A DNA stretch of 64,000 bases. It comes from Bosea sp. 685. GTDB taxonomy: Bacteria > Pseudomonadota > Alphaproteobacteria > Rhizobiales > Beijerinckiaceae. Position numbers and translations under genes: made by a program. The stretch is from NCBI RefSeq assembly GCF_031884435.1, contig NZ_CP134779.1, forward strand, positions 2,914,001 to 2,978,000, written 5' to 3'. The notes below the pieces were generated by a model. The model saw only the letters and a list, made by a program, of their open reading frames with translations. It did no database searches and was not told the DNA's origin. Every line of letters starts with the position of its first letter. The first letter of the stretch is position 1. This document shows, one piece after another, positions 41,419-57,238 of this stretch.

Positions 41419-41485
41419 CTAGAACATCGATTTAACGCGTTTTCTTCACGTGAGCCGGCAACCACTTCGCTCGAAAACGCTCTAG
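41419..41485 (+). repeat. Dispersed palindromic intergenic element, copy 3 (short)
   Basis: CTAGAACATCGATTTAACGC then TTTTCTTCACGTGAGCCGG and TTCGCTCGAAAACGCTCTAG, without the large hairpin of the other copies. Its final CTAG contains the TAG stop codon of the ProX-like gene. Confidence 0.85.
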
Positions 41486-42516
41486 CGGGCAGCCATCGCC
41501 TCAGTGATCCAACCATCGAACAACGTCTGGTTCTCCTTGATCCAGGTGTCGCCGGCGGCCCGGATGGCGCGCGGCGAGCTGTCCCCCGCTATGGCGCCTT
41601 CCCATTTCGCCCAGGTATCGCGGGGATAGCGGGCGAGTTCGAGGAAGCGCCGGATGGCGGGGTTCTTCGCCAGGAAATCGCGGTTGGCGATAGGCAAGTA
41701 GTTCCACTGGCCGAGCGCCATGCGGCATGGATCCTGTCCGCCGGCGCAGCCCTTGACGCCGCTGACCAGCGCGCCGGTCGTGACCTTAATGTTGGGTGGA
41801 ATCGCATCGAACGGCGTAGGCAGCCAGACCACGTCTTTGCCCGGAACGAGCTTGTCCATGACCCAGGACGGGCTCCAGGCATAATAGAGCGTCGGCTCAC
41901 CACGCAGGACGCGACCGATGGCTTCGGCCATCAGCGCCTCATACTTGCCGCGCACCGATTTGATCGTGTTCTTCAGACCGAACTTGTCGAGCTGGTACTC
42001 GACGACGTCGCCGCAGGACCAGCCCGGGTCGCAATTGATCAGGTTGACCTTGCCTTCAGCCGCGAGTGCCGCCGCGATCTTCGGGTCCTTCAGCTGGTCG
42101 AGCTGGGTGATATTGTTGGCTTCAGCCGTCTTCTTGTCGATCAGATAGCCATTGATGCCGCCCTCGATGATCGTCCCCTCTCCGACCGTGGCGAGCTGCT
42201 TCTCCACTGTCTTGTATTGCGGCTCGCGCTGCGGAAAGTTGAGGCCGGTGAGCATGTCGAGATCGCCCAACGCCGCAGCCTGGAAGAATAATGTCGCATT
42301 GATCTGCGTTTCGGCGGTCTTGTAGCCCAGCTTCCGGAGTGCGATTTCGACGATATGATCCTGCATTCGCGTCGCACCCAACGTATCGCCGATGGCAATG
42401 CGGACGGTCCTGCCCTCGCCTGGCAAAGATTGGGCGCCAGCCGGGGACAGCACCAGGAGCCCCGCGCATGCCAGCGCAAACATCGAGCCCGTCTTGCGAT
42501 TCCAGGAAGCGGCCAT
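41482..42516 (-). CDS. Orphan glycine-betaine/ProX-type ABC binding protein
   Basis: A 344-residue exported binding protein (leader SMFALACAGLLVLSPAGAQ). OpuAC/ProX-type marks: GYKTAETQINATLFFQAAALG, NFPQREPQY, GGINGYLIDKKTAEANNI, LINCDPGWSCGDVVEYQLD and YYAWSPSWVMDKLVPG. It is strikingly similar along its length to the binding protein at 56198-57238, which has its own ATPase and permease. Here no ABC partner genes are adjacent, so it may feed the same ProVW pore with a different ligand. Stop codon supplied by a palindromic repeat. Confidence 0.88.
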   Translation of the reverse strand: MAASWNRKTGSMFALACAGLLVLSPAGAQSLPGEGRTVRIAIGDTLGATRMQDHIVEIALRKLGYKTAETQINATLFFQAAALGDLDMLTGLNFPQREPQYKTVEKQLATVGEGTIIEGGINGYLIDKKTAEANNITQLDQLKDPKIAAALAAEGKVNLINCDPGWSCGDVVEYQLDKFGLKNTIKSVRGKYEALMAEAIGRVLRGEPTLYYAWSPSWVMDKLVPGKDVVWLPTPFDAIPPNIKVTTGALVSGVKGCAGGQDPCRMALGQWNYLPIANRDFLAKNPAIRRFLELARYPRDTWAKWEGAIAGDSSPRAIRAAGDTWIKENQTLFDGWITEAMAAR

Positions 42517-42664: not shown

Positions 42665-43132
42665 TCAGGGCTCGATCGGCAGGGCGAAGCCCGCCTTCAC
42701 GCGGTCCATCACCACCATCGTCTTGAAACCCTTGATGTCAGGGTTCTCATAGAAGAACCGGCGCGTGAAGCGCTCATAGTCTTCCATGTCGCTGGCCGTG
42801 ACATAGAGCACGAAATCGGCGTCGCCGGTCACGTAGAGGCCGATCATCACCTCTTTCGTCGCGCGGATCGACGCCTTGAAGCGGTCGACGATGTCGGCGC
42901 GCTCGCGCTCCAGCGTCACCAGCACCAGCATGGAAACCGGACGCCCGACGGCCTTGGGCGAGACCACCGCAATGTCGGCCTCGATGACACCTTCGTCGCG
43001 CAGCCGCTTCAGCCGCCGCTGGCAGGCGGTCGCGGAGAGGCCGACCTGCTGGCCGAGCTCGGCGGTGGTCAGCCGGTTGTCCTGCTGGACGGCGGCGAGA
43101 AGGCGCCGATCGAGGCTGTCGAGCGAAGTCAT
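42665..43132 (-). CDS. Lrp/AsnC-family transcriptional regulator
   Basis: A 155-residue protein: N-terminal helix-turn-helix (LDSLDRRLLAAVQQDNRLTT, QVGLSATACQRRLKRLRDEG), then the RAM effector domain (VLVTLERERADIVDRFKASI, VTGDADFVLYVTASDM). The ATG at 43132 fits the family start. Divergent from the ALDH/aminotransferase pair, which it most likely controls in response to an amino acid; a palindrome lies in the shared promoter. Confidence 0.9.
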   Translation of the reverse strand: MTSLDSLDRRLLAAVQQDNRLTTAELGQQVGLSATACQRRLKRLRDEGVIEADIAVVSPKAVGRPVSMLVLVTLERERADIVDRFKASIRATKEVMIGLYVTGDADFVLYVTASDMEDYERFTRRFFYENPDIKGFKTMVVMDRVKAGFALPIEP

Positions 43133-43162
43133 GCAGAAACCCTGCGTTAAAGGAGAGAACAA

Positions 43163-43177
43163 CGCCGAAATTCGGCG
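43163..43177. promoter_or_regulatory. Palindrome in the lrp / aldehyde dehydrogenase promoter
   Basis: CGCCGAA-A-TTCGGCG is a perfect 15-bp palindrome, and AACGCCGA recurs immediately to its right (43182-43189), making a one-and-a-half site. It sits about 30 bases before the lrp start and 85 before the dehydrogenase start, a good position for an Lrp/AsnC operator acting on both. Confidence 0.55.
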
Positions 43178-43261
43178 CAATAACGCCGATTATACAGCAA
43201 TGCGCTGCGCCGCCCGCGATAATTTCCGGCGCAGGTCAATCACTGGTTCCGGAGGATTTTG

Positions 43262-44740
43262 ATGCAGGGCATATCCGCGAAAGCGCTGAAGGGGCTCGCG
43301 CGAGCCGACCTGCTGCAGAGCCGGGCTTTTGTGAATGGCGCGTGGCGCGACGCTTCGCAGCGCCAGGTGGTCACGGATCCCGCGACCGGCGAGACCATCG
43401 CGGAGGTCGCCTCCTGCGAGGTCGGCATGGTCGATGAGGCCGTTGCCGTCGCGGTCCAGGCGCAACGCTCCTGGCGCGAGCGCCCGCCGCTCGAACGCGG
43501 GCTCTTGCTGCGCGACTGGGCCTCCGCGATGCGCCGCAATGCCGGCGATCTCGCCGTCATCATGACGGCCGAACAGGGCAAGCCGCTGGCGGAGTCGCAT
43601 GGCGAGATCACGTATGCGGCGGCCTTCCTCGATTGGTTCGCGGCCGAGGGCGAGCGCAGCTACGGCGAAACGATCCCCAGCCATCTGCCGGGAAGCCGGC
43701 TTTCGGTCCAGATGCAGCCGATCGGAGTTGCCGCGGCCGTCACGCCCTGGAATTTTCCAAGCGCGATGATCACGCGCAAGGCCGGCGCGGCCTTGGCCGC
43801 CGGTTGCGCAATGATCGTGAAGCCCGCGCCGGTGACGCCGCTGTCCGCCCTGGCGCTTGCCCGGCTGGCAGAGGAGGTCGGCTTGCCCGGCGGCGTTCTC
43901 CAGATCGTCACCGGCGAGGCCGCGCCGTTGTCGCATCGCCTGATGTCTCACACCGATATCCGCGCCTTCTCCTTCACGGGCTCCACCGAAGTCGGACGGC
44001 TGCTGCTTGGGCAGGCGGCGCAGACGGTGAAGCGGGCCTCGCTCGAACTCGGCGGTCACGCGCCCTTCATCGTCTTCGACGATGCCCCGCTCGCGGCCGC
44101 CGTTGCCGGCTGCATCGCGGCGAAATTCGCAACCTCCGGCCAGGACTGCCTTGCGGCCAACCGCATCTATGTCCAGCGGAACTCCTATCAGCGCTTCGTC
44201 GCTGCCTTCTCCGAGGCGACTGCGCGCTTGCGGGTCGGTCACGGTCTGTCCGAGGGCACCGATATCGGGCCGATGACCAAGGCCTCGGTCGCGGAGAAAT
44301 GCCGCCAGCAGATCGCGCAGGCGGTCGCGGCCGGCGCCCGGATCGTCACGGGCGGACAGGACAGTCCGCTCAGTGGCAATTTCGTCCAACCGACCGTGCT
44401 CGCCGATGTCATCGATGCGATGACGATCGCGCGCGAGGAGACCTTTGGGCCTATCGCCGCGATCCTGCCCTTCGATGACGAGGACGAGGTCGTCGCCCGG
44501 GCCAATGCCACCGAAATGGGGCTCGCGGCCTATGTCTACACCGACGATCTGCGTCGTGCGATGCGCCTCACCGACCAGCTCGAATACGGCATGGTCGCGG
44601 TCAACACGGCAAAGTTCACCGGGGCGCCGATCCCTTTTGGCGGCTGGAAGCAGTCGGGCCTCGGCCGGGAGGGCTCGCGCCACGGCATCACCGAATATCT
44701 CGAAGCGAAATATGTCTGCTTCGGGAATCTCGCAGCCTGA
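43262..44740 (+). CDS. NAD(P)-dependent aldehyde dehydrogenase, succinate-semialdehyde type
   Basis: A 492-residue ALDH, ATG chosen five bases after GGAGGA. Catalytic Cys296 is in SGQDCLAANR and the general-base Glu262 in LELGGHAPF. The Rossmann turn is FTGSTEVGR and the substrate-end motif is PFGGWKQSGLGREG. GabD-type succinate-semialdehyde dehydrogenases share the SGQDC-type loop. It is followed 16 bases later by an omega-aminotransferase, so the pair would convert an omega-amino acid (for example 4-aminobutyrate) through its semialdehyde to the diacid. Confidence 0.9.
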   Translation: MQGISAKALKGLARADLLQSRAFVNGAWRDASQRQVVTDPATGETIAEVASCEVGMVDEAVAVAVQAQRSWRERPPLERGLLLRDWASAMRRNAGDLAVIMTAEQGKPLAESHGEITYAAAFLDWFAAEGERSYGETIPSHLPGSRLSVQMQPIGVAAAVTPWNFPSAMITRKAGAALAAGCAMIVKPAPVTPLSALALARLAEEVGLPGGVLQIVTGEAAPLSHRLMSHTDIRAFSFTGSTEVGRLLLGQAAQTVKRASLELGGHAPFIVFDDAPLAAAVAGCIAAKFATSGQDCLAANRIYVQRNSYQRFVAAFSEATARLRVGHGLSEGTDIGPMTKASVAEKCRQQIAQAVAAGARIVTGGQDSPLSGNFVQPTVLADVIDAMTIAREETFGPIAAILPFDDEDEVVARANATEMGLAAYVYTDDLRRAMRLTDQLEYGMVAVNTAKFTGAPIPFGGWKQSGLGREGSRHGITEYLEAKYVCFGNLAA

Positions 44741-44756
44741 TCAAGGAGATCACCCC

Positions 44757-46163
44757 ATGACGATCGATGTCGCAGCCATCGGTGCGCTGGATCGCGCCAG
44801 CGTCCTGCACCCCTTCACCCAGCTCAAGGATTTTGCCACCGGCAAGCTCGGCGAGCCTACCATCGTCGAAACCGGGAAAGGCATCCGCATTCAGGATGTA
44901 ACCGGTCGCAGCTATATCGACGGCTTCGCCGGGCTCTACTGCGTCAATATCGGCTATGGCCGAACCGAGGTGGCCGAGGCGATTGCGCGGCAGGCCCACC
45001 GGCTCGCCTATTATCACAGCTACGCCGCCCACACGACCGATGAGCTCGCCATCCTCTCCGACCGCCTCGTCAGGATGGCGCCGGGACAAATGAGCAAGGT
45101 CTTCTACGGCCTATCCGGCTCGGACGCGAACGAGACCCAGGCCAAGCTGGTCTGGTATTACAACAACCTGCGCGGCCAGCCGCGGAAGAAGAAGATCATT
45201 TCGCGGCTGCGCGGCTATCACGGCTGCAGCGTCGTTTCCGGCTCGATGACCGGGATGAGCTTCTACCATGATCATATGGATCTGCCCTTCCCCGGCATTC
45301 TGCACACCGGCGCACCGCATCATTATTGGGGTGCTCAAGCCGGCGAGACCGAAATCGAGTTCTCGAAGCGCCTTGCGGACGAACTCGAAGGCCTGATCCT
45401 GCGTGAGGGACCCGAGACTGTCGGTGCCTTCATCGGTGAGCCGGTGCTCGGCACGGGCGGCATCACCCCGCCGCCGCAGGGCTACTGGCAGGCAATCCAG
45501 CTGGTGCTGCGCAAATACGACGTGCTCTTGATCGCCGACGAGGTCATCACCGGCTTCGGCCGTGTCGGCACGCCCTTCGGTTCGCATCTCTACGGCATCG
45601 AGCCCGACCTGATCACTGTCGCGAAAGGCCTGACCTCAGGCTATTTCCCGCTCTCGGCCGTGATCGTCGGAGAGAAGGTCTACAAGGTTATGGAGGACGG
45701 CGCGGACCGTGTCGGAGCCTTCTCGCACGGCTATACCTATTCCGGGCATCCGATCGGTGCGGCAGCAGCCAATGCCGTGCTCGACATCGTCGAGCGCGAG
45801 GATCTGGCGGGCAAGGCGCGCGATGTCGGCGGCTATTTCCAGGACCGGCTGAAGGCGACCTTCGCGCAATTGCCGATCGTCGGCGAGGTGCGCGGCGTCG
45901 GCATGCTGGGCGCGCTCGAATTCGTCGCCGACCGCTCGGCCAAGACCCGCTTCGATGCGGCGCTGAAGGTCGGGGCGCGCATCTCCAAGGCGGCTCGCGA
46001 CCGTGGCCTGATCGCCCGCGCGATGCCGCATGGCGATATTCTCGGCTTCGCCCCGCCACTTGTGACGACGAAGGAGGAAATCGACGAGATCGTCGGCATC
46101 GCCGAGCAGGCGGTGCGTCAGGTCATGGACGAACTGGCCCGCGAGAAGATTAAGGTGGCCTGA
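44757..46163 (+). CDS. Class III omega-aminotransferase
   Basis: A 468-residue PLP enzyme starting behind AAGGAG. The PLP lysine is K290 in LITVAKGLTSGYFPLS. Others: FAGLYCVNIGYG, GLSGSDANETQAKL, YHGCSVVSGSMTG, GEPVLGTGGITPPP, LIADEVITGFGR and HGYTYSGHP. This is the pattern of omega-amino acid:pyruvate and putrescine-type transaminases. It transfers the terminal amino group of a diamine, GABA-like acid or beta-alanine. It ends with a strong intrinsic terminator. Confidence 0.9.
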   Translation: MTIDVAAIGALDRASVLHPFTQLKDFATGKLGEPTIVETGKGIRIQDVTGRSYIDGFAGLYCVNIGYGRTEVAEAIARQAHRLAYYHSYAAHTTDELAILSDRLVRMAPGQMSKVFYGLSGSDANETQAKLVWYYNNLRGQPRKKKIISRLRGYHGCSVVSGSMTGMSFYHDHMDLPFPGILHTGAPHHYWGAQAGETEIEFSKRLADELEGLILREGPETVGAFIGEPVLGTGGITPPPQGYWQAIQLVLRKYDVLLIADEVITGFGRVGTPFGSHLYGIEPDLITVAKGLTSGYFPLSAVIVGEKVYKVMEDGADRVGAFSHGYTYSGHPIGAAAANAVLDIVEREDLAGKARDVGGYFQDRLKATFAQLPIVGEVRGVGMLGALEFVADRSAKTRFDAALKVGARISKAARDRGLIARAMPHGDILGFAPPLVTTKEEIDEIVGIAEQAVRQVMDELAREKIKVA

Positions 46164-46200
46164 GGCTTCGCGATGCGTCAGGCGCTTATCTCATGCATAA

Positions 46201-46227
46201 GGGCCCGCCAAAATGGCGGGCCCTGTT
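46201..46227 (+). terminator. Intrinsic terminator after the aminotransferase
   Basis: GGGCCCGCC pairs perfectly with GGCGGGCCC around an AAAAT loop and is followed by TGTTT, 38 bases after the stop codon. In reverse it can also serve the convergent DUF1185 gene (TTTTGGCGGGC side). Confidence 0.8.
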
Positions 46228-46265
46228 TCGATCGGCGGATGCGGAGCATCTTCAGCGCGATACGC

Positions 46266-46856
46266 TCAAGCGTTCTCCAGTTCCTGCTTCATCTCGTCCA
46301 TATCCTGGAAGCGATCGGCGAGGCGCGGATGGGCCCGGCTGTTGTCGCAGGCTCCGATCGCAACCAGAACCTCGTCGGCGGCCGGCGCGTCCGGAATCTG
46401 GAAGTTCGCGGTCAGGAAATGCGAGCGCTTGCCGGTTTCGCTCTTGTGGATCATCGGCAGCGAGAGCAGTGCGCCGGGCGCGTTGCGCGTGTTGGTGAAG
46501 CTCAGATAGGCGGTGCCTTTGACGGCATCGCGGAACATGTTGCCGAAGCGCAGCGTGTGGATCAGCGCCGAAGCATGCTCGATCTCGCCATTGGTGCCGA
46601 CCGCCGCGGCCTTGCCGTAAGCCTCGACCTGTTCGGCCGGCATCAGTGCGACGAGGCGCTTGGTCAGCTCTGTGCCGAGATGGGGCGCGATGCGCAGGAT
46701 TTCGGGCCGCAGGTTCTCGACGAAACCCTGGCCCGCCCAGGGGTTGCGCAGCACGGCGGCGACGATGACCATGCGAACCGGCCGGTCGGTGGCCTTGCCG
46801 CCCTCGATGAAGGTTTCCTCGACGAAGGTCGAGATCTTGCGCAAGCCAAAATCCAT
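46266..46856 (-). CDS. Amino acid synthesis-family protein (DUF1185)
   Basis: A 196-residue protein starting MDFGLRKISTFVEETFIEGG and carrying the DUF1185 core: MVIVAAVLRNPWAGQGFVEN, LGTELTKRLVALMPAEQVEAYGKAAAVG and EIEHASALIHTLRFG. Structures exist for the family but no reaction is established. The genome context here (divergent from a PucR regulator that leads a flavin monooxygenase operon) matches its recurrent association with catabolic clusters. The frame runs upstream for hundreds of codons but only as the shadow of pucR. Confidence 0.87.
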   Translation of the reverse strand: MDFGLRKISTFVEETFIEGGKATDRPVRMVIVAAVLRNPWAGQGFVENLRPEILRIAPHLGTELTKRLVALMPAEQVEAYGKAAAVGTNGEIEHASALIHTLRFGNMFRDAVKGTAYLSFTNTRNAPGALLSLPMIHKSETGKRSHFLTANFQIPDAPAADEVLVAIGACDNSRAHPRLADRFQDMDEMKQELENA

Positions 46857-47000
46857 GAGGGTCCACCTGTTGTGATTGTCCGATGCGGCCGCAGCGTAAC
46901 GGGCCGGTTGCGCGAACGTCTTCCGTCGGATCGCTGGAAGATTCTGCGGACTGCCCCTGCGATGCGGGGTAAGGTCGCGATGTTGGCTCGGGAGAACTGA

Positions 47001-48809
47001 ATGGCGGATCAGGCATCGCAGATGCGCTCGTTGCGGGATGTCGCAAGCCGGATCAATTCCGATGGCGATCTCGAGACGATCCTGCGCGACCTCATCCATG
47101 CCGCCTGCGAGCATGGCGGCTGGACGCTGGGATCGATCATGGCGATCGACGCCGCCCATGGCGAGGCGCATGTCATTGTGCGGCATGACCCGACGCTGCT
47201 GCGCCGACCGCTCGAAAACCGATGGGAGCTGGCGACGAGCCCCGCCCTGATCGCGCTGCAACGCAACGAGTCGGTCTATATCCGCGACGCTCGCGCCTCC
47301 GACGAGTTCCCCGGCTATCGACGCGAAGCTTTCGAGCGCGACTACCGCACGGTGCTCGTGCTGCCGATGAGCTGCGCCGATGCCGAAAACCGGCCGATGG
47401 TGCTGAACGTCGTCTCGCGCGGTATCACCGAGGTGTCGCCCGATGATCTCGCCTTCATGAGCATGATCGTCCATCTCGGTGGGATCGCGGTCGAGCGCGA
47501 GCATCGGATCAGGGCCGAACGCCAGGCGGCCGAGCAGCTGCAGAAGGCACTGCAGACGCAGACGACGCTGCTTCAGGAGGTTTTGTCCGGCGGGTCGACC
47601 TCGGCGCTGGCGGCGATGTTGGCGGACCTCCTGCCCGCCCCCGTGCTGGTCGTCGATTTCTCCGGCAATGCGCTGGTCGCCAGCCGGTCGCCGACGCCGC
47701 TTCATTTCGACGACACGGCCTGGCAGCGGGCGATCGACACCACCCTTGGCAGCCAGATCGTCACAGCGGCGCGGGACGCCGTCGCGGCGCAGCGCAGTGA
47801 TCCGCGGGGCTTGCGGCTCGATGACGGCGAGCGGCAGCTGCAGCTCATGGCCAGGATCGAGCCCCTGAATGTCGATGGGCAGGCCGTTGGGGCGCTCGTG
47901 ATCTTTCCGACTGCGCAGGCGGCCGGCGATCTCGAACGGCTCCTGCTCGACAGTGTGAAGTTCGCCCTCAGCGTCCAGATGATGCGCAGCGTCATCCGCT
48001 TCCGCTTCGAGACGCGGACATTGACCGAGCTGTTCTTCGAGATCGTCGAGCGCCGATGGCGCGATGCCGACGACGTTCTTCTGCGCGGCCGTCGGCTCGG
48101 CCTTGCGCTGGGGGCTCCGGCCCGCATGGTGGTCGTCGATTTTCCGGACATGCCGTCCCTGCCGGCCGACATCAGTGTCGATTGCCACCATGCGGTGACG
48201 CGGCTGGCACGCCAGCTGAATGTTCCCGCGAGCGTCGTCGCCGTCGGCGGCGGGTTGGTCTGCCTCCTGCCGCATGATGGGGACGACGGCCAGGAGCGGA
48301 TCGGACGCCTCGCGCGACGCATGGTCGAGACGCTGCGACACAGCTTCAACCGGGAGCCCATCGTGGTGCTCGGTGGCATCTGCGGAGGTCTCGATGACTA
48401 CCCCAAGGAATGGGAGCGCTGCTGGCGCATGATCCGCATCGCGCGTGATTTCGGCCGCACGGGGACCCTTTCGGCCTCGGACTTCGGCCCGATGCCGATG
48501 CTGATCGGCGCGGCGGAATCGGCCGATGTGCGCAGCTTCGTCGACGGCAGCATCGGCATCGTGGTCGCGCATGACCGCAAGCACGACACGCCCTATCTGG
48601 AAACCCTCGCCGCTTATCTGCGCGAAGGCTGCCGCGCCCAGGCCTGCGCCGATGCGATGGGGTTGCATGTGACGACGCTGCGCTACCGGCTGTCGCGCAT
48701 CCAGGACCTGTTCGGGATCGACCCGGAGACGGCGGATCGCCGCTTCGCGATCGAACTGGCGATCCGGCTGCATGGCGTGATCGAGAACGGCAGCGCCGCG
48801 AGCCGCTAG
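47001..48809 (+). CDS. PucR-type regulator with GAF sensor domain
   Basis: A 602-residue regulator. An N-terminal GAF domain (about residues 10-165, with LRDVASRINSDGDLETILRD, FERDYRTVLVLPM) is joined by a short coiled stretch to a central GGDEF-like/CdaR-type domain (VCLLPHDGDDGQERIGRLA, VLGGICGGLDDYPKEWERC) and a C-terminal PucR helix-turn-helix (LETLAAYLREGCRAQACADA, GLHVTTLRYRLSRIQDLFG). It resembles regulators of purine/amide catabolism. Divergent from the DUF1185 gene and 123 bases before the flavin reductase, which suggests it activates the operon on sensing a small substrate. Confidence 0.88.
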   Translation: MADQASQMRSLRDVASRINSDGDLETILRDLIHAACEHGGWTLGSIMAIDAAHGEAHVIVRHDPTLLRRPLENRWELATSPALIALQRNESVYIRDARASDEFPGYRREAFERDYRTVLVLPMSCADAENRPMVLNVVSRGITEVSPDDLAFMSMIVHLGGIAVEREHRIRAERQAAEQLQKALQTQTTLLQEVLSGGSTSALAAMLADLLPAPVLVVDFSGNALVASRSPTPLHFDDTAWQRAIDTTLGSQIVTAARDAVAAQRSDPRGLRLDDGERQLQLMARIEPLNVDGQAVGALVIFPTAQAAGDLERLLLDSVKFALSVQMMRSVIRFRFETRTLTELFFEIVERRWRDADDVLLRGRRLGLALGAPARMVVVDFPDMPSLPADISVDCHHAVTRLARQLNVPASVVAVGGGLVCLLPHDGDDGQERIGRLARRMVETLRHSFNREPIVVLGGICGGLDDYPKEWERCWRMIRIARDFGRTGTLSASDFGPMPMLIGAAESADVRSFVDGSIGIVVAHDRKHDTPYLETLAAYLREGCRAQACADAMGLHVTTLRYRLSRIQDLFGIDPETADRRFAIELAIRLHGVIENGSAASR

Positions 48810-48932
48810 GGGGGCCATGCCTTACCGCTCTTCGCAGAAGAATTTTGCCGATCTATCCCTCTTTTCATAGGAAGATGTAGCTCGCATCGCCGCCTAGCCT
48901 TCACCGATCCTGACTTGATCGAGGTGAAGCGC

Positions 48933-49913
48933 ATGCTCGCTGCGGCCACGAACGCCCCCAATACGATCGACCCCGTCGCGCTGCGTCGTGCGCTGGGGAC
49001 GTTCGTGACGGGCGTGACCATCATCACGACCCGCGATGCCGACGGCACGCCGCGTGGCATGACGGCGAACTCGTTCACCTCGGTCTCGCTCGATCCGCCG
49101 CTGCTGCTGGTCTGCGTCGGCAAGGGCGCGCACAGCTTTGCAGCCTTCAACAGTTCGCCCGCCTTCGCGGTCAACCTGCTGCATGAGGGGCAGATCGACG
49201 TCTCGAACCTGTTCGCCTCGAAGGCGGCCAACAAGTTCGACACCGTCAGCCATGACCGCATCCATACCGGCTCGCCGGTCCTGACGGACTGCCTGACCTG
49301 GTTCGACTGCACGGTCCACCGCCGCGTCGATGCCGGCGACCATGTCGTGCTGATCGGCGAGATCCAGGCCTTCGGTACGAGCCCGTCGCCGCCGCTCGGC
49401 TTCTGCCGGGGTCGCTATGCCAACGTCAAGGATCCGCTGCCGCCGGGCTGGCTCGCCTCGCATGGCATGATCGTCGGCTATCTGATTGAGGCCGATGGCC
49501 AATTGCTGCTGCGCGCGGACGGTCGGGGTGGCTGGGTGCTGCCGAGCGCGCAGCGCCGCATCGCCGATAACGAGCTGAAGCTCGAGGGCGGCGACGCGCT
49601 GACGCTCGTGCCGGACGACACCTTCCTCTACTCGGTGTTCGACGTCACCGACGGCGACCCCGGATACCTGATCTACCGCGCCCGCCTCGCGCAGGATTCC
49701 GCTGCAGCGACGCTATCGGCCGGGCTGAAGTTCTTCCCGATCGACCAGCTTCCCTATGACGCGATTCCGACGCGCGAGATCAGCGCGATGCTGCGCCGCT
49801 ATGCCCGCGAAAGCGCGAGCAAGCGCTTCGGGATCTACATGGATTCCAACGATGGCGGGCGTCTCGCCATGGTCGGCGAGGCCCAGCCCTGGGCGCCAAA
49901 CCCGCAATCCTGA
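48933..49913 (+). CDS. Flavin reductase with C-terminal Nudix-like extension
   Basis: A 326-residue protein starting at the ATG giving MLAAATNAPN, with GAGGTGAAG upstream. Residues 10-165 are a flavin reductase domain (RRALGTFVTGVTIITTRDAD, GMTANSFTSVSLDPPLLLVC, FAVNLL, DHVVLIGEI). It supplies reduced FMN to a two-component monooxygenase, here the LLM enzyme two genes on. The last 150 residues (LIEADGQLLLRADGRGGWVLP onward) resemble a Nudix fold but lack the RExxEE box. They probably sense a ligand rather than hydrolyse a nucleotide, as in the regulated reductases of hydroxyphenylacetate hydroxylases. Confidence 0.83.
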   Translation: MLAAATNAPNTIDPVALRRALGTFVTGVTIITTRDADGTPRGMTANSFTSVSLDPPLLLVCVGKGAHSFAAFNSSPAFAVNLLHEGQIDVSNLFASKAANKFDTVSHDRIHTGSPVLTDCLTWFDCTVHRRVDAGDHVVLIGEIQAFGTSPSPPLGFCRGRYANVKDPLPPGWLASHGMIVGYLIEADGQLLLRADGRGGWVLPSAQRRIADNELKLEGGDALTLVPDDTFLYSVFDVTDGDPGYLIYRARLAQDSAAATLSAGLKFFPIDQLPYDAIPTREISAMLRRYARESASKRFGIYMDSNDGGRLAMVGEAQPWAPNPQS

Positions 49914-49928
49914 GCCGGCAGAGCAGAT

Positions 49929-51440
49929 ATGAAGACCACGGTCAAAACCCTCGAAGGCTCACGCCAGGATCTCTTCATCGACGGCCGCTTCGTCGCGCCC
50001 AAGAGCGGCGTCTACCTGCCCTCCTACGATCCGACGACCGCCGAGCCCTGGTACGCCTTCGCGCAAGGCGACGCCGCCGATGTCGATGCCGCCGTGCGCT
50101 CGGCGCGTGCCGCTCTGGTCGACCCGGCCTGGCGGCGCATGACCCAGACCGAGCGCGGCAAGCTGGTGCGCCGTCTCGCCGAGCTCGTGCTCGAGAACGC
50201 CGACGAGCTGGCGATGATCGAGTGCCGCGACAACGGCAAGCTGCTCAAGGAGATGCGCGCCCAGATGCGCGCGATTCCGGACTCCTATCTCTATTTCGCG
50301 GGAATGGCCGACAAGCTCCAGGGCGACACCATCCCGGTCAACAAGCTCGACACGCTGAACTTCAACCTGCGTGAGCCGATCGGCGTGGTCGGGATGATCA
50401 TCCCGTGGAACTCGCCATTGATGATGCTGACCGGCACGCTCGCGCCCTGCCTGGCAATCGGCAACACCATCGTGGTGAAGCCCTCCGAGCACGCGACGGC
50501 CTCGACGCTGGCGCTGGCCGAACTCGTGATCGAGGCCGGCATTCCGCCCGGCGTCGTCAATGTCGTCACCGGCGACGGCGCGACCACGGGCGACGCGCTG
50601 ACGCGCCATCCCGGCATCGCGAAATACGTCTTCACCGGCTCGACTTTCACCGGCCGCAAGATCGCCGGCAACGCCGCCGAAAACCTGGTGCCCTGCCAGA
50701 TGGAGCTGGGCGGCAAGTCGCCCCATGTCATCTTCTCCGATGTCGACATCGACAAGGCGGTGAACGGCGTCGTGTCCGGCGTCTTCGCGGCGGCCGGGCA
50801 AACCTGCGTCGCCGGCTCGCGCTGCTTCGTCGAGCAGCCGATCTATGACCGCTTCGTCGAGGCGCTGGTCGCGCGCACCCAGCGCATCAAGGTCGGCCAT
50901 CCGCAGCTTGAGGACACCGATATCGGGCCGCTGGCGCTCTCAGCGCAGCTCGCCAAGGTGGAGGATTATGTCGCCTCCGGCGTGCGGGAGGGCGCGAAGG
51001 TCGCGGCCGGCGGGCGCAAGCCGCAGGACGGCGAACTGGCGCGCGGCTGGTATTTCGAGCCGACGGTGATGACCGAGGCGAGCAACGACATGCGCTTCAT
51101 GCGCGAGGAGATCTTCGGGCCGGTCGTCGGCGTCGTGCCGTTCAAGAGCGAGGAGGAGATGATCGCCCTCGCCAACGACACCGAATACGGCCTGGCATCG
51201 GGCATCTGGACCCAAAACATCGACCGCGCGATGCGCTTCGCCCGCAACATCGAGGCCGGCACCGTCTGGATCAACACCTATCGCTCCGCCGCCTACATGT
51301 CCGCCAATGGCGGCATGAAGAACAGCGGTTACGGCCGCCGCGGCGGCTTCGAGGTCATGCGCGAATTCTCGCGCCTGAAGAATGTGGTGATCGACTATTC
51401 GGGCGCCATGCAGGACCCCTTCGTGATCCGCCTGCGCTGA
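49929..51440 (+). CDS. NAD-dependent aldehyde dehydrogenase
   Basis: A 503-residue ALDH: catalytic Cys293 in AAGQTCVAGSR, Glu259 in QMELGGKSPH, GSTFTGRKIA cofactor turn and EIFGPVVGVVPF. The sequence is of the general broad-range group, different from the ALDH at 43262. It starts 15 bases after the flavin reductase and is in the operon. It likely oxidises the aldehyde released after the flavin monooxygenase step. Confidence 0.9.
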   Translation: MKTTVKTLEGSRQDLFIDGRFVAPKSGVYLPSYDPTTAEPWYAFAQGDAADVDAAVRSARAALVDPAWRRMTQTERGKLVRRLAELVLENADELAMIECRDNGKLLKEMRAQMRAIPDSYLYFAGMADKLQGDTIPVNKLDTLNFNLREPIGVVGMIIPWNSPLMMLTGTLAPCLAIGNTIVVKPSEHATASTLALAELVIEAGIPPGVVNVVTGDGATTGDALTRHPGIAKYVFTGSTFTGRKIAGNAAENLVPCQMELGGKSPHVIFSDVDIDKAVNGVVSGVFAAAGQTCVAGSRCFVEQPIYDRFVEALVARTQRIKVGHPQLEDTDIGPLALSAQLAKVEDYVASGVREGAKVAAGGRKPQDGELARGWYFEPTVMTEASNDMRFMREEIFGPVVGVVPFKSEEEMIALANDTEYGLASGIWTQNIDRAMRFARNIEAGTVWINTYRSAAYMSANGGMKNSGYGRRGGFEVMREFSRLKNVVIDYSGAMQDPFVIRLR

Positions 51441-51442
51441 AC

Positions 51443-51480
51443 CCCAAAAAGCCAAGAACGCCCAAAAAGCCAAGAACGCC
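51443..51480. repeat. Perfect 18-bp tandem duplication
   Basis: CCCAAAAAGCCAAGAACG occurs twice head to tail (51443-51460, 51461-51478), followed by CC, in the 56-base gap between the ALDH stop and the next ribosome site. It looks like a slip-strand expansion; no role is evident. Confidence 0.8.
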
Positions 51481-51496
51481 GAGCCGGGAGGCCATC

Positions 51497-52600
51497 ATGA
51501 AATTTGCCGTTTCGATCAGCATGGAGCGTTTTTCGCCCCAGGATTCGATGTCGGACGCGGTCGCCAACATGCGCGCACTCGCAAAGATCGCTGACGAGGG
51601 CGGCTTCGAGACGCTCTGGACCGCCGAACATCACACCATCGAGTGCACGGTCTCGCCCAACCCGTTCCAGACGTTGACCTGGCTCGGCCAGCACACCGAC
51701 CGGATCAGGCTCGGCACGGCCACGCTTGCCGCGCCCTACTGGTCGCCGATCCGGCTGGCAGGCGAAGCAGCGCTCTGCGACCACTTGACCGGCGGCAGGC
51801 TCGAATTCGGCATCGCGCGCGGCGCCTATCAATACGAGTTCGACCGCATGGCCGGCGGCATCCCCCAGCAGGAGGGCGTCGCCTACATGAAAGAGCTTGT
51901 GCCTGCCGTGCAAAAGCTCTGGGCCGGCGACTATGCCCATGATGGGCACTACTGGAAATTCCCGCTGGCAACCTCGGTGCCCAAACCGCTGCAGCAGCCG
52001 CATCCGAGCATCTGGGTGGCGGCGCGCGACCCCGGCACCTTCGACTGGGCGATCGGCATCGGCGCCAACATCCTCTCGACGCCGCTCTCCTCGCCTCCGG
52101 CCGAGGTCGGCGTGCTCGGCGAGAAGTTCCGCAAGGCCGTGGCCGACCATCCCGAGCGGCCGCGCCCGCGCCTGATGATGCAGCGCCGGACCTGCGTTTA
52201 TGACCGACAGGAGGACTGGGAGGTCGCGGTGCGGCACTCCGTCGATTACGGGCGCTATTTCGAGAATCTGATGCAGAACATCGGCACCGTGACCAACGGC
52301 TTCCCCGAGGCGGTGCCGTTCGAGGCCGTGGCCAACCGCGCCAACTACAATCCCCAGGCCGTCCGCGACAACCTGATGTTCGGCACGCCCGACGAGGTCA
52401 TCGAGAAGCTGCAGGTCTATGAGGATGCGGGCGTCGATCAGTACTGCCTCGGCTTGTCCTTCAACCTGCCCTTCGAATTGCAGGTGAAGACGCTGCGACT
52501 ATTCATCGACGATGTGATGCCGCATTTCGCCGCCCGAGATCAGGACCGTGCGCGGGATCATGCGCAAGCGGCGCCGCGCCGCTCCGCTGTGGGGCACTGA
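51497..52600 (+). CDS. LLM-class flavin-dependent monooxygenase (bacterial luciferase-like)
   Basis: A 367-residue TIM-barrel monooxygenase behind GGGAGG. Marks: FETLWTAEHHTIECT, RLGTATLAAPYWSPI, HLTGGRLEFGIARGAYQYEF, PSIWVAARDP and the late GTPDEVIEKLQVYEDAGVDQY. It uses reduced FMN and oxygen to oxidise a small substrate, with the reductase encoded upstream. RutA of pyrimidine catabolism and various C-N-cleaving enzymes belong to the family. The substrate is unknown. Confidence 0.9.
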   Translation: MKFAVSISMERFSPQDSMSDAVANMRALAKIADEGGFETLWTAEHHTIECTVSPNPFQTLTWLGQHTDRIRLGTATLAAPYWSPIRLAGEAALCDHLTGGRLEFGIARGAYQYEFDRMAGGIPQQEGVAYMKELVPAVQKLWAGDYAHDGHYWKFPLATSVPKPLQQPHPSIWVAARDPGTFDWAIGIGANILSTPLSSPPAEVGVLGEKFRKAVADHPERPRPRLMMQRRTCVYDRQEDWEVAVRHSVDYGRYFENLMQNIGTVTNGFPEAVPFEAVANRANYNPQAVRDNLMFGTPDEVIEKLQVYEDAGVDQYCLGLSFNLPFELQVKTLRLFIDDVMPHFAARDQDRARDHAQAAPRRSAVGH

Positions 52601-52601
52601 G

Positions 52602-53450
52602 ATGGGCGCCGCGACAGGCGCTGTCCGCCCTCCGCAGGCGGATGGTGCCACGTGCCTGAGCGTCGGCGAGGCCACGCTGAACTACCGGCTGCAGGGCTCA
52701 GGCGAGCCGCTGGTCTGCATCCATGGCGTCGGCTCCTATCTGGAGGCCTGGGACGGCATTGCCGAGCGCCTTTCCGACCGGTTTCGCATCCTGAGCTTCG
52801 ATCTGCGCGGCCATGGCCGCTCGAGCAAGGTCAGGGGACGCTACGAGATCGACGATTTCGTCGGGGACGTGCTGGCTCTCGCCGATCATGCCGGCTTCGA
52901 GACCTTCCATCTCGCCGGCTTCTCGCTGGGCGGGCTGATCGCGCAGCGCCTGGCGCTGACGCATCCGGGGCGGCTCAGGCGGCTCGTGCTGCTGGCGACC
53001 GTGGCGGGCCGCACCGAGGAGGAGCGCGAGCGCGTTGCCGCCCGCCTCGCCGCTCTGCAGGCGGGCGATCGCGGTTCGCATTATGACGCCTCGCTGTCGC
53101 GCTGGCTGACCGAAGGCTTCCAGGCGCGCAACCCTGACCTCATCGCGATGCTGCGGCAGCGCAACGCCGAGAACGACCCCGAATGCTACGCCGCCGCCTA
53201 TCGCGTGCTGGCGCAGACTGATTTCGGCGGTTTGCTCGACCAGATCCATATGCCGGTCCTCATCGCGACCGGTGAGGAGGATGCCGGCTCCAACCCACGC
53301 ATGGCGCGCTACATGCACGAGCGCATCAGTGGCTCGCAGCTGCACATCCTGCCCGGCCTGCGTCACTCGATCCTGACCGAGGCCCCCGAGCAGGTGGCCG
53401 CGCTGATGCGTGACTTCCTGACCGGTAGCGCGAAGGGAGAGCCGGCATGA
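52602..53450 (+). CDS. Alpha/beta hydrolase
   Basis: A 282-residue cytosolic hydrolase. The ATG at 52602 follows the stop of the monooxygenase gene by one base. The nucleophile serine is in AGFSLGGLIAQRL, the oxyanion segment in VCIHGVGSYLEAW, the acid in ATGEEDAGSN and the histidine in GLRHSILTEAP. It looks like a carboxylesterase/enol-lactone or RutD-like aminoacrylate hydrolase. Placed after the monooxygenase, it should act on the oxidised intermediate. Confidence 0.88.
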   Translation: MGAATGAVRPPQADGATCLSVGEATLNYRLQGSGEPLVCIHGVGSYLEAWDGIAERLSDRFRILSFDLRGHGRSSKVRGRYEIDDFVGDVLALADHAGFETFHLAGFSLGGLIAQRLALTHPGRLRRLVLLATVAGRTEEERERVAARLAALQAGDRGSHYDASLSRWLTEGFQARNPDLIAMLRQRNAENDPECYAAAYRVLAQTDFGGLLDQIHMPVLIATGEEDAGSNPRMARYMHERISGSQLHILPGLRHSILTEAPEQVAALMRDFLTGSAKGEPA

Positions 53451-53761
53451 TCGTCGAGGAGCGGATCTACCGCATTCGCAACGGCCGGATGGGGCGCTAT
53501 CTTCAGTTGGTGCGCGACGAGGGCCTGGCGATCCAGCAGCCCATCCTGGGCCATCTGATCGGCTACTTCACCACCGAGATCGGCCTGCTCAGCCATGTCA
53601 CCCATCTCTGGGCCTATGCCGATTTCGAGGATCGGGTGCGGCGGCGCCAGCAACTGGCTGACGATCCACGCTGGCAGGCCTTCCTCCCGCGACTGTCGGA
53701 GAATATCGAGCAGGCGGAAAACCGCATCCTGCTGCCGACCGATTTTTCGCCGCTGCGTTGA
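53447..53761 (+). CDS. NIPSNAP-family protein
   Basis: A 104-residue protein, start overlapping the hydrolase stop by four bases. NIPSNAP marks: VEERIYRIRNGRMGRYLQL, GYFTTEIGLLSHVTHLWAYADFEDR and LADDPRWQAFLP. It is a dimeric alpha-beta barrel of unknown chemistry that often occurs in aromatic and amide catabolic operons. Last gene of the operon, 175 bases before proV. Confidence 0.87.
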   Translation: MIVEERIYRIRNGRMGRYLQLVRDEGLAIQQPILGHLIGYFTTEIGLLSHVTHLWAYADFEDRVRRRQQLADDPRWQAFLPRLSENIEQAENRILLPTDFSPLR

Positions 53762-53936
53762 GGGCAAGGATCAGGTGAAGCGCCGCGATCGCCCTTAGCG
53801 CTTTTCCGACAAGGGATGACAGCATTCGTCCTCTGGATCGCAGGAAGACGGACCGCGCGCGCCGGCTCTTAATCGATAGCGGCAGGGGTCGGACAAGCCC
53901 GAAGACATCGGGCGCCGAGAGGAGGGGTTTTCGGAC

Positions 53937-55130
53937 ATGACCGAGCGATTGCAGATTCAGAATCTGTACAAGATCTTCTCAGCGGCGCCGGAGGCGGCGT
54001 TGCAGATCCTAGCGAATGGCGGGGACAAGAACACCGTGTTCGACAAGCTCGGCGCCGTCGTCGGGCTCAACAATGTTTCGCTGAGCGTGCCTGAAGGCGC
54101 CATGTACATGGTCATGGGCCTGTCGGGCTCGGGCAAGTCGACGCTCGCGCGCTGCATCAACCGGCTGAACGAGCCAAGCGCCGGCAAGATCCTGCTCGAC
54201 GGGCGCGATATCGTTCCCCTGAAGGAAGAGGAGCTGCGCGAGGTCCGCCGCACGCGCATCTCGATGGTGTTCCAGCATTTTGCGCTCCTGCCGAACAAGC
54301 GCGTCATCGAGAATGTCGAATTCGGGCTGAAGCTGCGTGGCGCCTCTCCGGCGGATCGTCGCCGCCGCGCCGACGAGGTGCTGAGCGTGGTCGGGCTTGC
54401 GCGCTGGGGCTACCATTTCCCCCATGAGCTGAGCGGCGGAATGCGCCAGCGCGTCGGCCTTGCCCGCGCGCTCGCGACCGATGCCGATATCCTGATCATG
54501 GACGAGGCCTTCAGCGCGCTCGACCCGCTGATCCGCACCGAGATGCAGGACGAATTGCTGCGGCTGCAGCGCACGCTGAACAAGACCATCCTGTTCATCA
54601 CCCATGATTTCCAGGAGGCGCTCAAGCTCGGCACGCGCATCGCGATCATGTCTGAAGGCGAGCTGGTTCGCGAGGGCACCCCGCAATCGATCGTGCTGGA
54701 GCCGGGCAGCGATTATGTCGCGGCCTTCACCCGAGAGATCGACCGGGCCCGGCTTTTCGACGCCCGCTCCGTCATGCGCGAAGCCGCCCCGATCCTGCGC
54801 TCCGAGCGCGGCATCCTGGTGGGCGGCGCGGAGGCCGGCGACCCCGGTTTCGTTCTCGATGGCGAGGGCAGGATCCTCGGCGCGCTCGACGGGGCGGCGC
54901 TGGGCCATGCGCGCCAGAGCGGCGAAATCGGCACGCCGAGCAGCGATTACGTCAGCGTCCCGGAGAATGCCAAGCTCATCGAGGTCGCGCGCAGCTATCG
55001 CAACGGCGCGCCGATGGCGGTCGTCGATGGGGATGGCAGGCTCGTCGGGACCCTGGGCGTCGGCGAGCTCCTGTCCCGCATGTCCTCGACCTCCCCCAAA
55101 ACCGCCTCAGCCGGAGATCGCCATGTTTAA
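53937..55130 (+). CDS. Glycine betaine/proline-type ABC importer ATPase (ProV-like)
   Basis: A 397-residue ATPase with a long N-terminal segment as in ProV (LQILANGGDKNTVFDKLGAV). Walker A GLSGSGKST, signature LSGGMRQRVGLARAL, Walker B ILIMDEAFSALDPL and H-loop FITHDFQEAL are visible. The C-terminus has a degenerate CBS-like regulatory part (GFVLDGEGRILGALDG, MAVVDGDGRLVGTLG), the ionic-strength sensor in osmoregulated members. It is the first gene of a three-gene importer; the permease gene overlaps it by eight bases. Confidence 0.9.
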   Translation: MTERLQIQNLYKIFSAAPEAALQILANGGDKNTVFDKLGAVVGLNNVSLSVPEGAMYMVMGLSGSGKSTLARCINRLNEPSAGKILLDGRDIVPLKEEELREVRRTRISMVFQHFALLPNKRVIENVEFGLKLRGASPADRRRRADEVLSVVGLARWGYHFPHELSGGMRQRVGLARALATDADILIMDEAFSALDPLIRTEMQDELLRLQRTLNKTILFITHDFQEALKLGTRIAIMSEGELVREGTPQSIVLEPGSDYVAAFTREIDRARLFDARSVMREAAPILRSERGILVGGAEAGDPGFVLDGEGRILGALDGAALGHARQSGEIGTPSSDYVSVPENAKLIEVARSYRNGAPMAVVDGDGRLVGTLGVGELLSRMSSTSPKTASAGDRHV

Positions 55131-56070
55131 GGCCGACGATCTTGCCATTTTCCCGATCGACAGCTGGATCCAGCAGGGTGTCAGCTGGGTCGCGCTCAAT
55201 CTGCGCCCCCTCTTCCTCGCCATCAAATGGCCGGTTGAAGCTCTGCTCAGCCTGAACGACGCGCTGCTGCACGCGATTCCGTTCCCGGTTTTCGTCGTCG
55301 GCTTTACCTTGCTGGCATGGCGTCTGGCGACTCCCGGCATCGCGGCCTTCAGCGCGATATCGCTCGTGGTGATCGCGATGCTCGGCGTCTGGAACGAGGC
55401 GATGACGACGCTCTCGCTGATCTCGACCGCGATCGTGTTCTGCGCCGTCATCGGCATTCCGATGGGGATCTGGTGCGCGAGCAGCGACCGTGTCTGGAAC
55501 GTGGTGCGGCCGATCCTCGACATCATGCAGACGACACCGAGCTTCGTCTATCTGGTGCCGGTCGTCATGCTGTTTGGCGTCGGCACCGTGCCGGGTGAGG
55601 TCGCCGTCGTCACGGCAGCGGCGCCGCCCTTGATCCGTTTCACCAATCTCGGCATCCGCATGGTCGAGCACGAGATCGTCGAAGCCGGCCTCGCCTTCGG
55701 CGCCGACAAGCGCCAGCTCCTGTTCGAGATCCAGCTCCCCCTTGCCATTCCGACCATCCTCGGCGGCCTCAACCAGACGGTGCTCACCGCGATGGTACTC
55801 TCCGTCGTCGTCGCGATGATCGGCGCCGAGGGCTTGGGGCTCGTCGTCCTCCAGGGCCTGGGCCGTCTCGATGTCGGCCGCGCGGCGGTTGGCGGCATCG
55901 CCATCGTACTGCTGGCGATGGTGCTCGACCGGGTCACGCAGAAGCTGGCCGAACCGAAGCGTGGCGGCGTGGCGCGGACCTCACTGCTCGCCACGGTGAT
56001 GCGCCTGTTCAAGGGCGGTCGCTCGGAAGAACCGACGGCAACCGTGACTGCGGCAAAGCAAGCGCTCTGA
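55123..56070 (+). CDS. Glycine betaine/proline-type ABC permease (ProW-like)
   Basis: A 315-residue membrane protein starting at the ATG giving MFKADDLAIFPIDSWIQQG; longer upstream codons belong to the proV shadow. It has spans through the central region (FVVGFTLLAWRLATPGIAAFS, FCAVIGIPMGIW) and a conserved LDIMQTTPSFVYLVPVVMLFG. The coupling loop is EAGLAFGADKRQLLFEIQLP. Pore of the importer. Confidence 0.9.
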   Translation: MFKADDLAIFPIDSWIQQGVSWVALNLRPLFLAIKWPVEALLSLNDALLHAIPFPVFVVGFTLLAWRLATPGIAAFSAISLVVIAMLGVWNEAMTTLSLISTAIVFCAVIGIPMGIWCASSDRVWNVVRPILDIMQTTPSFVYLVPVVMLFGVGTVPGEVAVVTAAAPPLIRFTNLGIRMVEHEIVEAGLAFGADKRQLLFEIQLPLAIPTILGGLNQTVLTAMVLSVVVAMIGAEGLGLVVLQGLGRLDVGRAAVGGIAIVLLAMVLDRVTQKLAEPKRGGVARTSLLATVMRLFKGGRSEEPTATVTAAKQAL

Positions 56071-56197
56071 CGCCGCCGCCGAACGGCATGACCGGATAGC
56101 CGGAGCGCTAGGGCGCGCCGGCTCGAAGACCCGCCGCAAGGCGGTCAGGGGAAATCACAAAACGACCGAACAGGTCGGCATCGAGAAGGAGAACGCA

Positions 56198-57238
56198 ATG
56201 ACAGGCATAACCGGATTGAAGACATTGACGGCTGCGGCCGTCGCCATGACCGCGATCGCTTTCGCGACAGTGCCTGCGGCTGCGCAGGAGCTTCCGGGGA
56301 AGGGCAAGACCATCCGCTACGCCCAGAGCGACAGCCTGGGCGCCAATTACGTCGTCGCGCAGATCGTGATGAAGGCGATGAAGCAGCTCGGCTACGACGT
56401 GAAGCTCAGCACCGTCAACACGACGCTGTTCTTCCAGGCCGCAGCGCAGGGCGATCTCGACATTGCAACCGACGTCAATTTCCCACAGCGCGAGCCCGGC
56501 TTTCGCGCTGTCGAGAAGCAGGCCGAGATCGTGGGTGCCGGCATGATCGTCGGCGGTGGCATCAATGGCTATCTGATCGACAAGAAGACAGCGACCGCCC
56601 ATAACATCACCACGCTCGAGCAGATGAAGGATCCCAAGATCGCAGCGCTGTTCGGCAGGGACGGCAAGGCGGATCTGATCAACTGCGATCCTGGCTGGAG
56701 CTGCGGCGACGTCGTCGATTTCCAGCTCGACAAGTTCGGTCTCAAGGACACGGTGAAATCGATCCGCGGCAAATACGAGGCGCTGATGGTAGAGGCCGTC
56801 GCCCGCGTGAAACGTGGCGAGCCGGCGTTCTTCTATGCCTGGAGCCCATCCTGGATGAACAACGCCCTCGTCCCGGGCGAGGATGTGGTCTGGCTGCCGA
56901 CACCGGCGGACGCGCTGCCGCCCTCCGTGCCGAACAAGGGCTCGGCGCTGGTCAGCGGCGTCAAGGGTTGTGCCGGCGGGGCCGATCCGTGCCGCATGGC
57001 GATGTCGTCATGGAACTGGTCGGCTGTCGCCAACAAAGGGTTCGTCGCGGCCAACCCGGCGGTGAAAACCTTCGTGGAGCAGATGAAGTTCCCGCTCGAA
57101 GACTGGTCGAACTGGGAAGCCAGCATCAACAAGAATGGCGGAAGCACCGCCCTCGTGACCAAGATGGCCGATGAGTGGATCGGCTTGCACAAAGGTCAGT
57201 TCGAAGGCTGGGTCGAGGCCGCCCGTTCGGCAAAATGA
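56198..57238 (+). CDS. Glycine betaine/ProX-type binding protein
   Basis: A 346-residue exported protein (leader AAVAMTAIAFATVPAAAQ). It has the ProX fold: KTIRYAQSDSLGANYVVAQ, TTLFFQAAAQGDLDI, NFPQREPGF, INCDPGWSCGDVVDFQLD and FFYAWSPSWMNN. Closely related to the orphan at 41482-42516. The ligand-box aromatic residues typical of betaine or choline binding are partly visible (W in DPGWSC and YAWSPSW). Transports a quaternary-ammonium or similar compound, perhaps the substrate of the nearby catabolic operon. Confidence 0.9.
   Translation: MTGITGLKTLTAAAVAMTAIAFATVPAAAQELPGKGKTIRYAQSDSLGANYVVAQIVMKAMKQLGYDVKLSTVNTTLFFQAAAQGDLDIATDVNFPQREPGFRAVEKQAEIVGAGMIVGGGINGYLIDKKTATAHNITTLEQMKDPKIAALFGRDGKADLINCDPGWSCGDVVDFQLDKFGLKDTVKSIRGKYEALMVEAVARVKRGEPAFFYAWSPSWMNNALVPGEDVVWLPTPADALPPSVPNKGSALVSGVKGCAGGADPCRMAMSSWNWSAVANKGFVAANPAVKTFVEQMKFPLEDWSNWEASINKNGGSTALVTKMADEWIGLHKGQFEGWVEAARSAK

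Follow-up and report, generated by a model that had tools for sequence, protein, structure and literature searches.

The window analysed here, a stretch of 64,000 nucleotides from Bosea sp. 685 (contig NZ_CP134779.1, positions 2,914,001 to 2,978,000 of the forward strand), holds a cluster of seven genes organised around a luciferase-like flavin mononucleotide (FMN) monooxygenase (LLM). By homology, this cluster is of the type that degrades the plant pyridine alkaloid trigonelline, yet it is distinct from the trigonelline (tgn) locus itself: it is a conserved, separately regulated sister of that locus. All seven genes claimed in a preliminary description of this DNA are present at the correct positions, and their families are confirmed by Pfam:

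46266..46856, minus strand: DUF1185/AA_synth protein, TgnF-like (Pfam PF06684, 222.6 bits)
47001..48809, plus strand: PucR-family regulator (Pfam HTH_30 with GGDEF_2 and GAF_2)
48933..49913, plus strand: flavin reductase, TgnA-like (Pfam Flavin_Reduct, 142.6 bits)
49929..51440, plus strand: aldehyde dehydrogenase (ALDH), TgnC-like (Pfam Aldedh, 565 bits)
51497..52600, plus strand: LLM, TgnB-like, of the clade termed type B below (Pfam Bac_luciferase, 188 bits)
52602..53450, plus strand: alpha/beta hydrolase, TgnD-like (Pfam Abhydrolase_1, 106.8 bits)
53447..53761, plus strand: NIPSNAP-domain protein (Pfam NIPSNAP, 103.2 bits), a near relative of PDB 1VQY

Two starts were refined, that of the reductase probably being the ATG at 48933 (alternatively a TTG at 48915) and that of the hydrolase probably the ATG at 52602, a single base past the LLM stop codon. 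Intergenic gaps from the reductase to NIPSNAP range from -4 to 56 bases, a spacing consistent with one operon. The same gene set was found again on plasmids and chromosomes of alphaproteobacteria and of Caballeronia, so that its grouping in the window is far above chance. A sigma-70 scan found nothing, and a scan of window positions 40000-60000 returned no Rfam family at the gathering threshold.

The nearest described system is, judged by its proteins, the tgn pathway of Acinetobacter baylyi, whose trigonelline degradation cluster tgnA-F was reportedly described by Perchat et al. in PNAS in 2018, a study to which PMC7913881 and PMC8269262 refer. A. baylyi TgnF, TgnA, TgnB, TgnC and TgnD are 52, 33, 40, 42 and 34% identical to their window counterparts, and the window LLM shares 41% identity with the TgnB of Acinetobacter sp. 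PK01. The plasmid locus of strain PK01, which has the same tgn block as the A. baylyi type strain, carries tgnA, tgnB and tgnC by name, an adjoining hydrolase and DUF1185 gene, and a succinate-semialdehyde dehydrogenase (SSADH) gene downstream; its record annotates tgnC as (Z)-2-((N-methylformamido)methylene)-5-hydroxybutyrolactone dehydrogenase. The copies on pSymA of Sinorhizobium meliloti are 43% (LLM), 53% (DUF1185), 31% (hydrolase), 43% (ALDH) and 47% (NIPSNAP) identical to those of the window. Homologues of TgnA, TgnC, TgnD and TgnF thus all lie within the window cluster, with a TgnE-like SSADH gene nearby (43259-44740), and the GntR-type regulator that is usual for tgn loci, though perhaps not defining, is replaced by PucR. 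As for earlier assignments, a passage of PMC7913881 calls DUF1185 a TgnF homologue, a passage of PMC8269262 gives TgnA/TgnB as the ring-opening step, and an older proposal, set out in PMC2954203, placed DUF1185 in amino-acid metabolism on the basis of its fold and gene neighbours.

The preliminary description had called the cluster Rut-like, and a pyrimidine-opening pathway of that kind would indeed employ an LLM oxygenase, a flavin reductase and an alpha/beta hydrolase, classes common to both systems. However, the RutF and RutD models reached only 87.9 and 72.1 bits (cut-offs 254.75 and 238.5), the RutA model was not among the best 25 of the 29 families matched by the window LLM, and the cluster as a whole matches tgn, which makes a Rut-like route highly improbable. 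Membership of the LLM in the DszA/NtaA group was also rejected (TIGR03860, 41 bits against a cut-off of 279.7).

The window LLM is in a well supported sister clade of TgnB, which we name type B. The phylogeny was built from 47 rows, each trimmed to the start motif; with two distant LLMs as outgroup the end branches exceeded 7, and the tree without them was used instead. The TgnB clade, or type A, comprised 18 rows, including A. baylyi, S. meliloti and a second copy from the Bosea genome at 5.11 Mb (branch support 100/100), and the clade with the window LLM comprised 17 (100/99.8). Forcing the window LLM into type A was rejected (approximately unbiased test, p 0.0004); the question raised in the preliminary description, whether this oxygenase falls inside a group of known substrate, is thus answered in the negative for TgnB. 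A comparison of 94 type A with 22 type B oxygenases gave 66 shared positions and 37 that are fixed differently in the two types. Plasmid relatives of the window LLM (60 of 424 records, taken in even steps) were 76-89% identical when of type B and 41-45% when of type A, after which none exceeded ~32%. Further TgnB-like oxygenases, with 49-64% identity to the window LLM, are encoded in loci L142-L155 (genomes G004, G051, G117, G035, G033 and others), some of them alongside PucR, DUF1185 and a ProVWX importer, as in L144. L142 and L143 (63-64% LLM identity) lie in the window clade, near a PucR-like gene (31-32%) and ProX.

We next compared gene content between the two types. The 22 type B loci consisted of 11 chosen plasmid loci, 10 genome loci and the window, some from near-identical strains, and were delimited by 67% LLM identity, a limit set after the data had been seen and one that excludes L142 and L143. 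DUF1185, PucR, reductase, ALDH and LLM occurred in each of the 22 and the hydrolase in 20; an importer stood beside the type B genes in all 22, either a polar-amino-acid-type ABC importer (PAAT, 14 loci) or ProVWX (8 loci). The window is a type B locus by this definition, having a B-clade LLM, PucR, DUF1185, reductase, ALDH, an importer and the palindrome described below. The 91 type A loci (80 genome loci, being the best 80 of 555 relatives, with 8 plasmid and 3 further genome loci, a few of them truncated at a contig end) contained reductase, ALDH and hydrolase in 89 cases each, DUF1330 in 61, SSADH in 30, CMD in 27 and PucR in none, and a GntR regulator in 81/91, against 0/16 type B loci compared. 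The three parts that the preliminary description had found unfamiliar are therefore known from tgn-type loci: DUF1185, the TgnF homologue, is present in 88 of the 91, the ALDH is the TgnC counterpart, and NIPSNAP occurs in 10, S. meliloti pSymA included.

The importer of the window starts 175 bases past NIPSNAP and spans 53937-57238. Its ProV and ProX reach the cut-offs of betaine-importer models, and its ProW lies below:

53937..55130, plus strand: ProV-type ATPase of a betaine importer (TIGR01186, 341.1 bits, cut-off 326.6)
55123..56070, plus strand: ProW-type permease (PRK10952, 328.4 bits, below the cut-off of 439)
56198..57238, plus strand: ProX-type binding protein (PRK11119, 397.2 bits, cut-off 215)

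The binding protein is closest to the E. coli glycine-betaine protein ProX (1r9l). Of the tryptophan stretches PGW, W-P-x-W and VNW, which we take to form the binding cage, it keeps the tryptophans of the first two, and the third reads VNF. This resemblance favours a quaternary ammonium substrate. Two earlier suggestions gain support here: that the importer belongs with the cluster, given that one adjoins every type B locus and that an operator-like site precedes ProV, and, at the level of homology, that the cluster would encode an oxidative route begun by an LLM-class monooxygenase with its own flavin reductase on a small N-containing, probably quaternary-ammonium substrate.

The operator-like sites follow the palindrome TTCCT-N9-AGGAA, which was sought with up to 2 mismatches within 150 bases upstream of a gene or 30 bases inside it. 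In the window these are:

46921..46939, no strand: operator-like palindrome in the divergent DUF1185/PucR intergenic region (2 mismatches)
48855..48873, no strand: operator-like palindrome before the reductase operon (2 mismatches)
53828..53846, no strand: operator-like palindrome before ProV (1 mismatch)
42581-42599: weak operator-like site upstream of a second ProX-like gene (2 mismatches)

Among the type B loci, the palindrome precedes the reductase in 22/22, PucR in 16/22 and DUF1185 in 16/22. It stands before seven of nine ProV-like genes (7/8 ProVWX loci), the exceptions being the gene of L020 and, in L180, a distant ProV-like gene, and before only 3/14 PAAT importers. As background, 471,985 bases from other parts of these loci held 174 such places, or 0.12 per 320 bases, and control genes of these loci gave 0/22 (ALDH), 0/20 (hydrolase), 0/6 (NIPSNAP), 0/8 (ProW), 0/8 (ProX), 0/9 (Lrp) and 2/17 (CMD); type A loci gave 1/91 before TgnF and 1/86 before TgnA. 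Matches before the LLM (13/22) lie largely inside the ALDH coding sequence and were not counted as sites. Because the palindrome precedes each of them, the three units of the window (DUF1185/PucR, the reductase operon and ProVWX) look like one regulon, and because PucR is present in every type B locus, we infer that it is the likely regulator and binder of this candidate operator. Seven loci of other or outlying clades were scanned with at most 1 mismatch: four had no palindrome, L142 had one far from the cluster genes, L145 has a perfect match upstream of its reductase (position 7258), and L187 has one with 1 mismatch just before its PucR gene (position 6239). As L145 and L187 belong to another clade, the palindrome may be a wider PucR-subfamily operator.

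Searches of the Bosea genome with PK01 proteins ranked the 5.11 Mb copy first and the window second in each case: TgnC scored 691 and 416.7 bits among 19 ALDHs (third, 331.6), the hydrolase at the TgnD position 189 and 98.5 among 13 places (then 62.2), and TgnA 229.2 and 157.2 among 5 places (then 98.7). With a profile built from both LLM types, these two places were the only matches at E <= 1e-20. The genome thus holds two tgn-type clusters. The one at C2:5.11 Mb has DUF1185, a hydrolase-reductase fusion, LLM, ALDH, NIPSNAP and an importer; such a fusion of TgnD-like hydrolase and TgnA-like reductase, ~590-650 codons long, was seen in L106 (this locus, C2:5104000-5121000), L012 and L160.

Given this separate tgn-like locus in the same genome, the substrate of the window cluster is likely another N-methylpyridinium-type betaine. 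We therefore favour, with some confidence, the reading that type B is a diverged, paralogous two-component FMN oxygenase pathway that would open an N-methylpyridinium-type betaine other than trigonelline. Its support consists of homology of every core step, the separate clade, and the co-conserved regulator, importer and palindrome, all sequence-based; the substrate, the reaction products and the binding of the palindrome by PucR are what we infer. The tgn pathway includes a hydrolase (TgnD) step and ends in succinate semialdehyde. By analogy, the ProVWX betaine importer would bring the substrate in, the reductase would supply reduced FMN, and with this and O2 the LLM oxygenase would open an N-alkylated pyridinium-type ring. 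Oxidation of the resulting ring-opened aldehyde or lactol may then fall to the TgnC-like ALDH. Cleavage of the product by the TgnD-like hydrolase may yield succinate semialdehyde or a closely related compound, and the linked SSADH might convert this to succinate; the TgnF-like DUF1185 protein would help at the end of the route. The PucR-family protein would be the likely regulator, acting through TTCCT-N9-AGGAA before all three units.

A narrower version is plausible, although we stop a little short of calling it probable: a pathway dedicated to another quaternary N-heteroaromatic, for instance homarine or a further N-methylpyridinium carboxylate, with import and catabolism under PucR control through the palindrome, as one branch of a wider TgnB-like family whose other branches, several to a genome, would each open a different ring. 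Homarine itself is a guess. Among the literature matches listed, no gene-level paper on its breakdown was found, and a passage of PMC8269262 makes the case that homarine is an improbable substrate for TgnAB itself.

Could type B simply be a second, isofunctional trigonelline pathway, opening the same ring under another regulator and with another importer? The core enzyme set is the same as in tgn, many plasmid hosts are legume symbionts exposed to trigonelline, and, at the thresholds used, type B occurs without type A in G051, in G189 and in 4/6 type B genomes of a Rhizobiaceae sample. Nevertheless, both types are found together in the window genome, in three sampled genomes (G084, G136 and the class-level genome G551) and in four named organisms, namely Mesorhizobium ciceri WSM1271 and Ensifer adhaerens M8 and, by identity alone, Rhizobium leguminosarum bv. 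trifolii WSM2304 and Caballeronia sp. SBC2. Among 199 genomes of the window's order, 18 had type A, 5 had type B (at least 640 bits) and 3 had both, where 0.45 were expected (hypergeometric p 0.006). From these counts and named holders, one cell can carry both types, and type B also occurs alone. The separate clade with its 37 divergently fixed positions, and the importer and regulator families that differ from those of the type A loci examined, likewise speak against isofunctionality, which we regard as unlikely.

A further alternative is that the toolkit acts on a different chemical class, such as a non-aromatic quaternary amine or an N-heterocycle other than a pyridine, and that nothing beyond the flavin chemistry is conserved. 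The chemistry of LLM enzymes is versatile, and the wider family has further clades and several paralogues per genome (four TgnB-like members at E <= 1e-60 in G004), so its substrates have probably diversified. Yet TgnC-, TgnD- and TgnF-like steps are kept together with the oxygenase, which argues for the same type of ring-opened intermediate and renders a change of chemical class improbable.

Several observations weigh against our preferred reading of type B as a pathway for a different pyridinium betaine. The type B loci are not independent of one another. No hydrolase match was found in two of the 22 (L140 and L141), NIPSNAP occurs in only 6/22, and a CMD-family gene, present in 17/22, is missing from the window. 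The window hydrolase shares only 31-34% identity with TgnD-type proteins. The surroundings of L142 and L143 gave no match to DUF1185, TgnC-like ALDH or hydrolase and at most a weak one to the reductase, so that the full gene set marks a subgroup and not the whole clade. Without the window genome, which was chosen for its type B locus, the order sample had both types in 2/4 (expected 0.34, p 0.04), and among 277 Rhizobiaceae genomes (type A 40, type B 6, both 2; expected 0.87, p 0.21) co-occurrence was not beyond chance; one type B genome is common to the two samples. Type B could thus serve trigonelline where type A is absent. Finally, the TgnF role of DUF1185 goes back to a single cited sentence in PMC7913881, whose authors saw no such effect with their own DUF1185 protein.

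Four genes on the DUF1185 side of the cluster may be linked to it:

43259..44740, plus strand: SSADH-like ALDH, possible TgnE counterpart (TIGR01780, 583 bits, below the cut-off of 646.35)
44751..46163, plus strand: class III aminotransferase, possibly linked
42665..43180, minus strand: Lrp/AsnC regulator, possibly linked
41482..42516, minus strand: second ProX-like binding protein, possibly linked (PRK11119, 335.2 bits)

The window SSADH is 45% identical to that of the S. meliloti pSymA cluster. SSADH, aminotransferase and Lrp adjoin DUF1185 in 3/22 type B loci (the window, L018 and L181), with a different internal order in L018 and L181; an Lrp-type gene occurs in 8 type B loci besides the window and adjoins DUF1185 in L008, L016 and L018. 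On the other side, after ProX, lies a ureohydrolase-family gene (57760-58740; formimidoylglutamase-like, 214 bits, cut-off 229) that was not found in the 15 other type B loci compared.

Elsewhere in the Bosea genome, two tandem DUF1185 genes (C2:2291181-2292323, L107) share only 33% and 40% identity with the window copy, with no TgnB-like gene within the 16 kb taken; given this and the low identity, the roles of DUF1185 are probably not confined to tgn-type pathways. Another NIPSNAP gene, flanked by two further flavin reductases (C2:617850-620885), possibly marks another flavin-monooxygenase locus. An analogous actinobacterial layout was seen on a plasmid of Rhodococcus rhodochrous BX2 (L158), where a remote LLM (~25%) accompanies flavin reductase, ALDH, amidohydrolase, NIPSNAP and SSADH, perhaps for pyridine; its resemblance to a pyridine degradation cluster found no confirmation among the literature matches listed and was not used.

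Plants and plankton contain pyridinium betaines as solutes: legumes have trigonelline, and homarine occurs in the sea. Genes for their breakdown are poorly known, and the type B cluster, carried by soil and root bacteria, provides a small set of enzymes that can be tested, together with a candidate operator and regulator pair now concrete enough for testing. What is new is the sister clade, type B, the tgn-type enzyme set being already known; accordingly, the label 'undescribed' in the preliminary description holds for this clade and its substrate only and not for the enzyme set. Among the literature matches listed, this cluster is not named in any title or abstract opening, and neither is a second tgn-type pathway. 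DUF1185, and sometimes NIPSNAP, accompany tgn-type chemistry, and the link between type B and tgn gives context to two crystal structures previously without function, 1VQY, which is identical to the NIPSNAP protein of an Agrobacterium type B cluster (L015), and 3RH7 ('hypothetical oxidoreductase'), practically identical to the reductase of the S. meliloti tgn-like locus (L005).

Among known systems, the Rut pyrimidine pathway has only enzyme classes in common with the window cluster, none of its models being reached. The A. baylyi tgn locus is much closer, with homologues of TgnA, TgnB, TgnC, TgnD and TgnF in one cluster and SSADH near; however, the LLMs are only ~40% identical and fall in separate clades, tgn has a GntR regulator and a cytosine-permease-type carrier where the window has PucR and ProVWX, the window DUF1185 gene is divergent, the window cluster has its own palindrome, and tgn has DUF1330 and CMD genes instead of NIPSNAP. 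The S. meliloti pSymA tgn-like locus, near noeAB/nodL, resembles the window in combining DUF1185, hydrolase, reductase, LLM, ALDH, NIPSNAP, an ABC importer and SSADH in one block, but it has a GntR regulator, another importer family and an LLM of the type A clade; judging from its position and a cited title, it perhaps represents the trc trigonelline genes. The type B cluster on pAt of Agrobacterium fabrum (L015) shares with the window the clade (LLM 76% identical), PucR, ProVWX and NIPSNAP, and differs in having an extra CMD-family gene and DUF1185 downstream.

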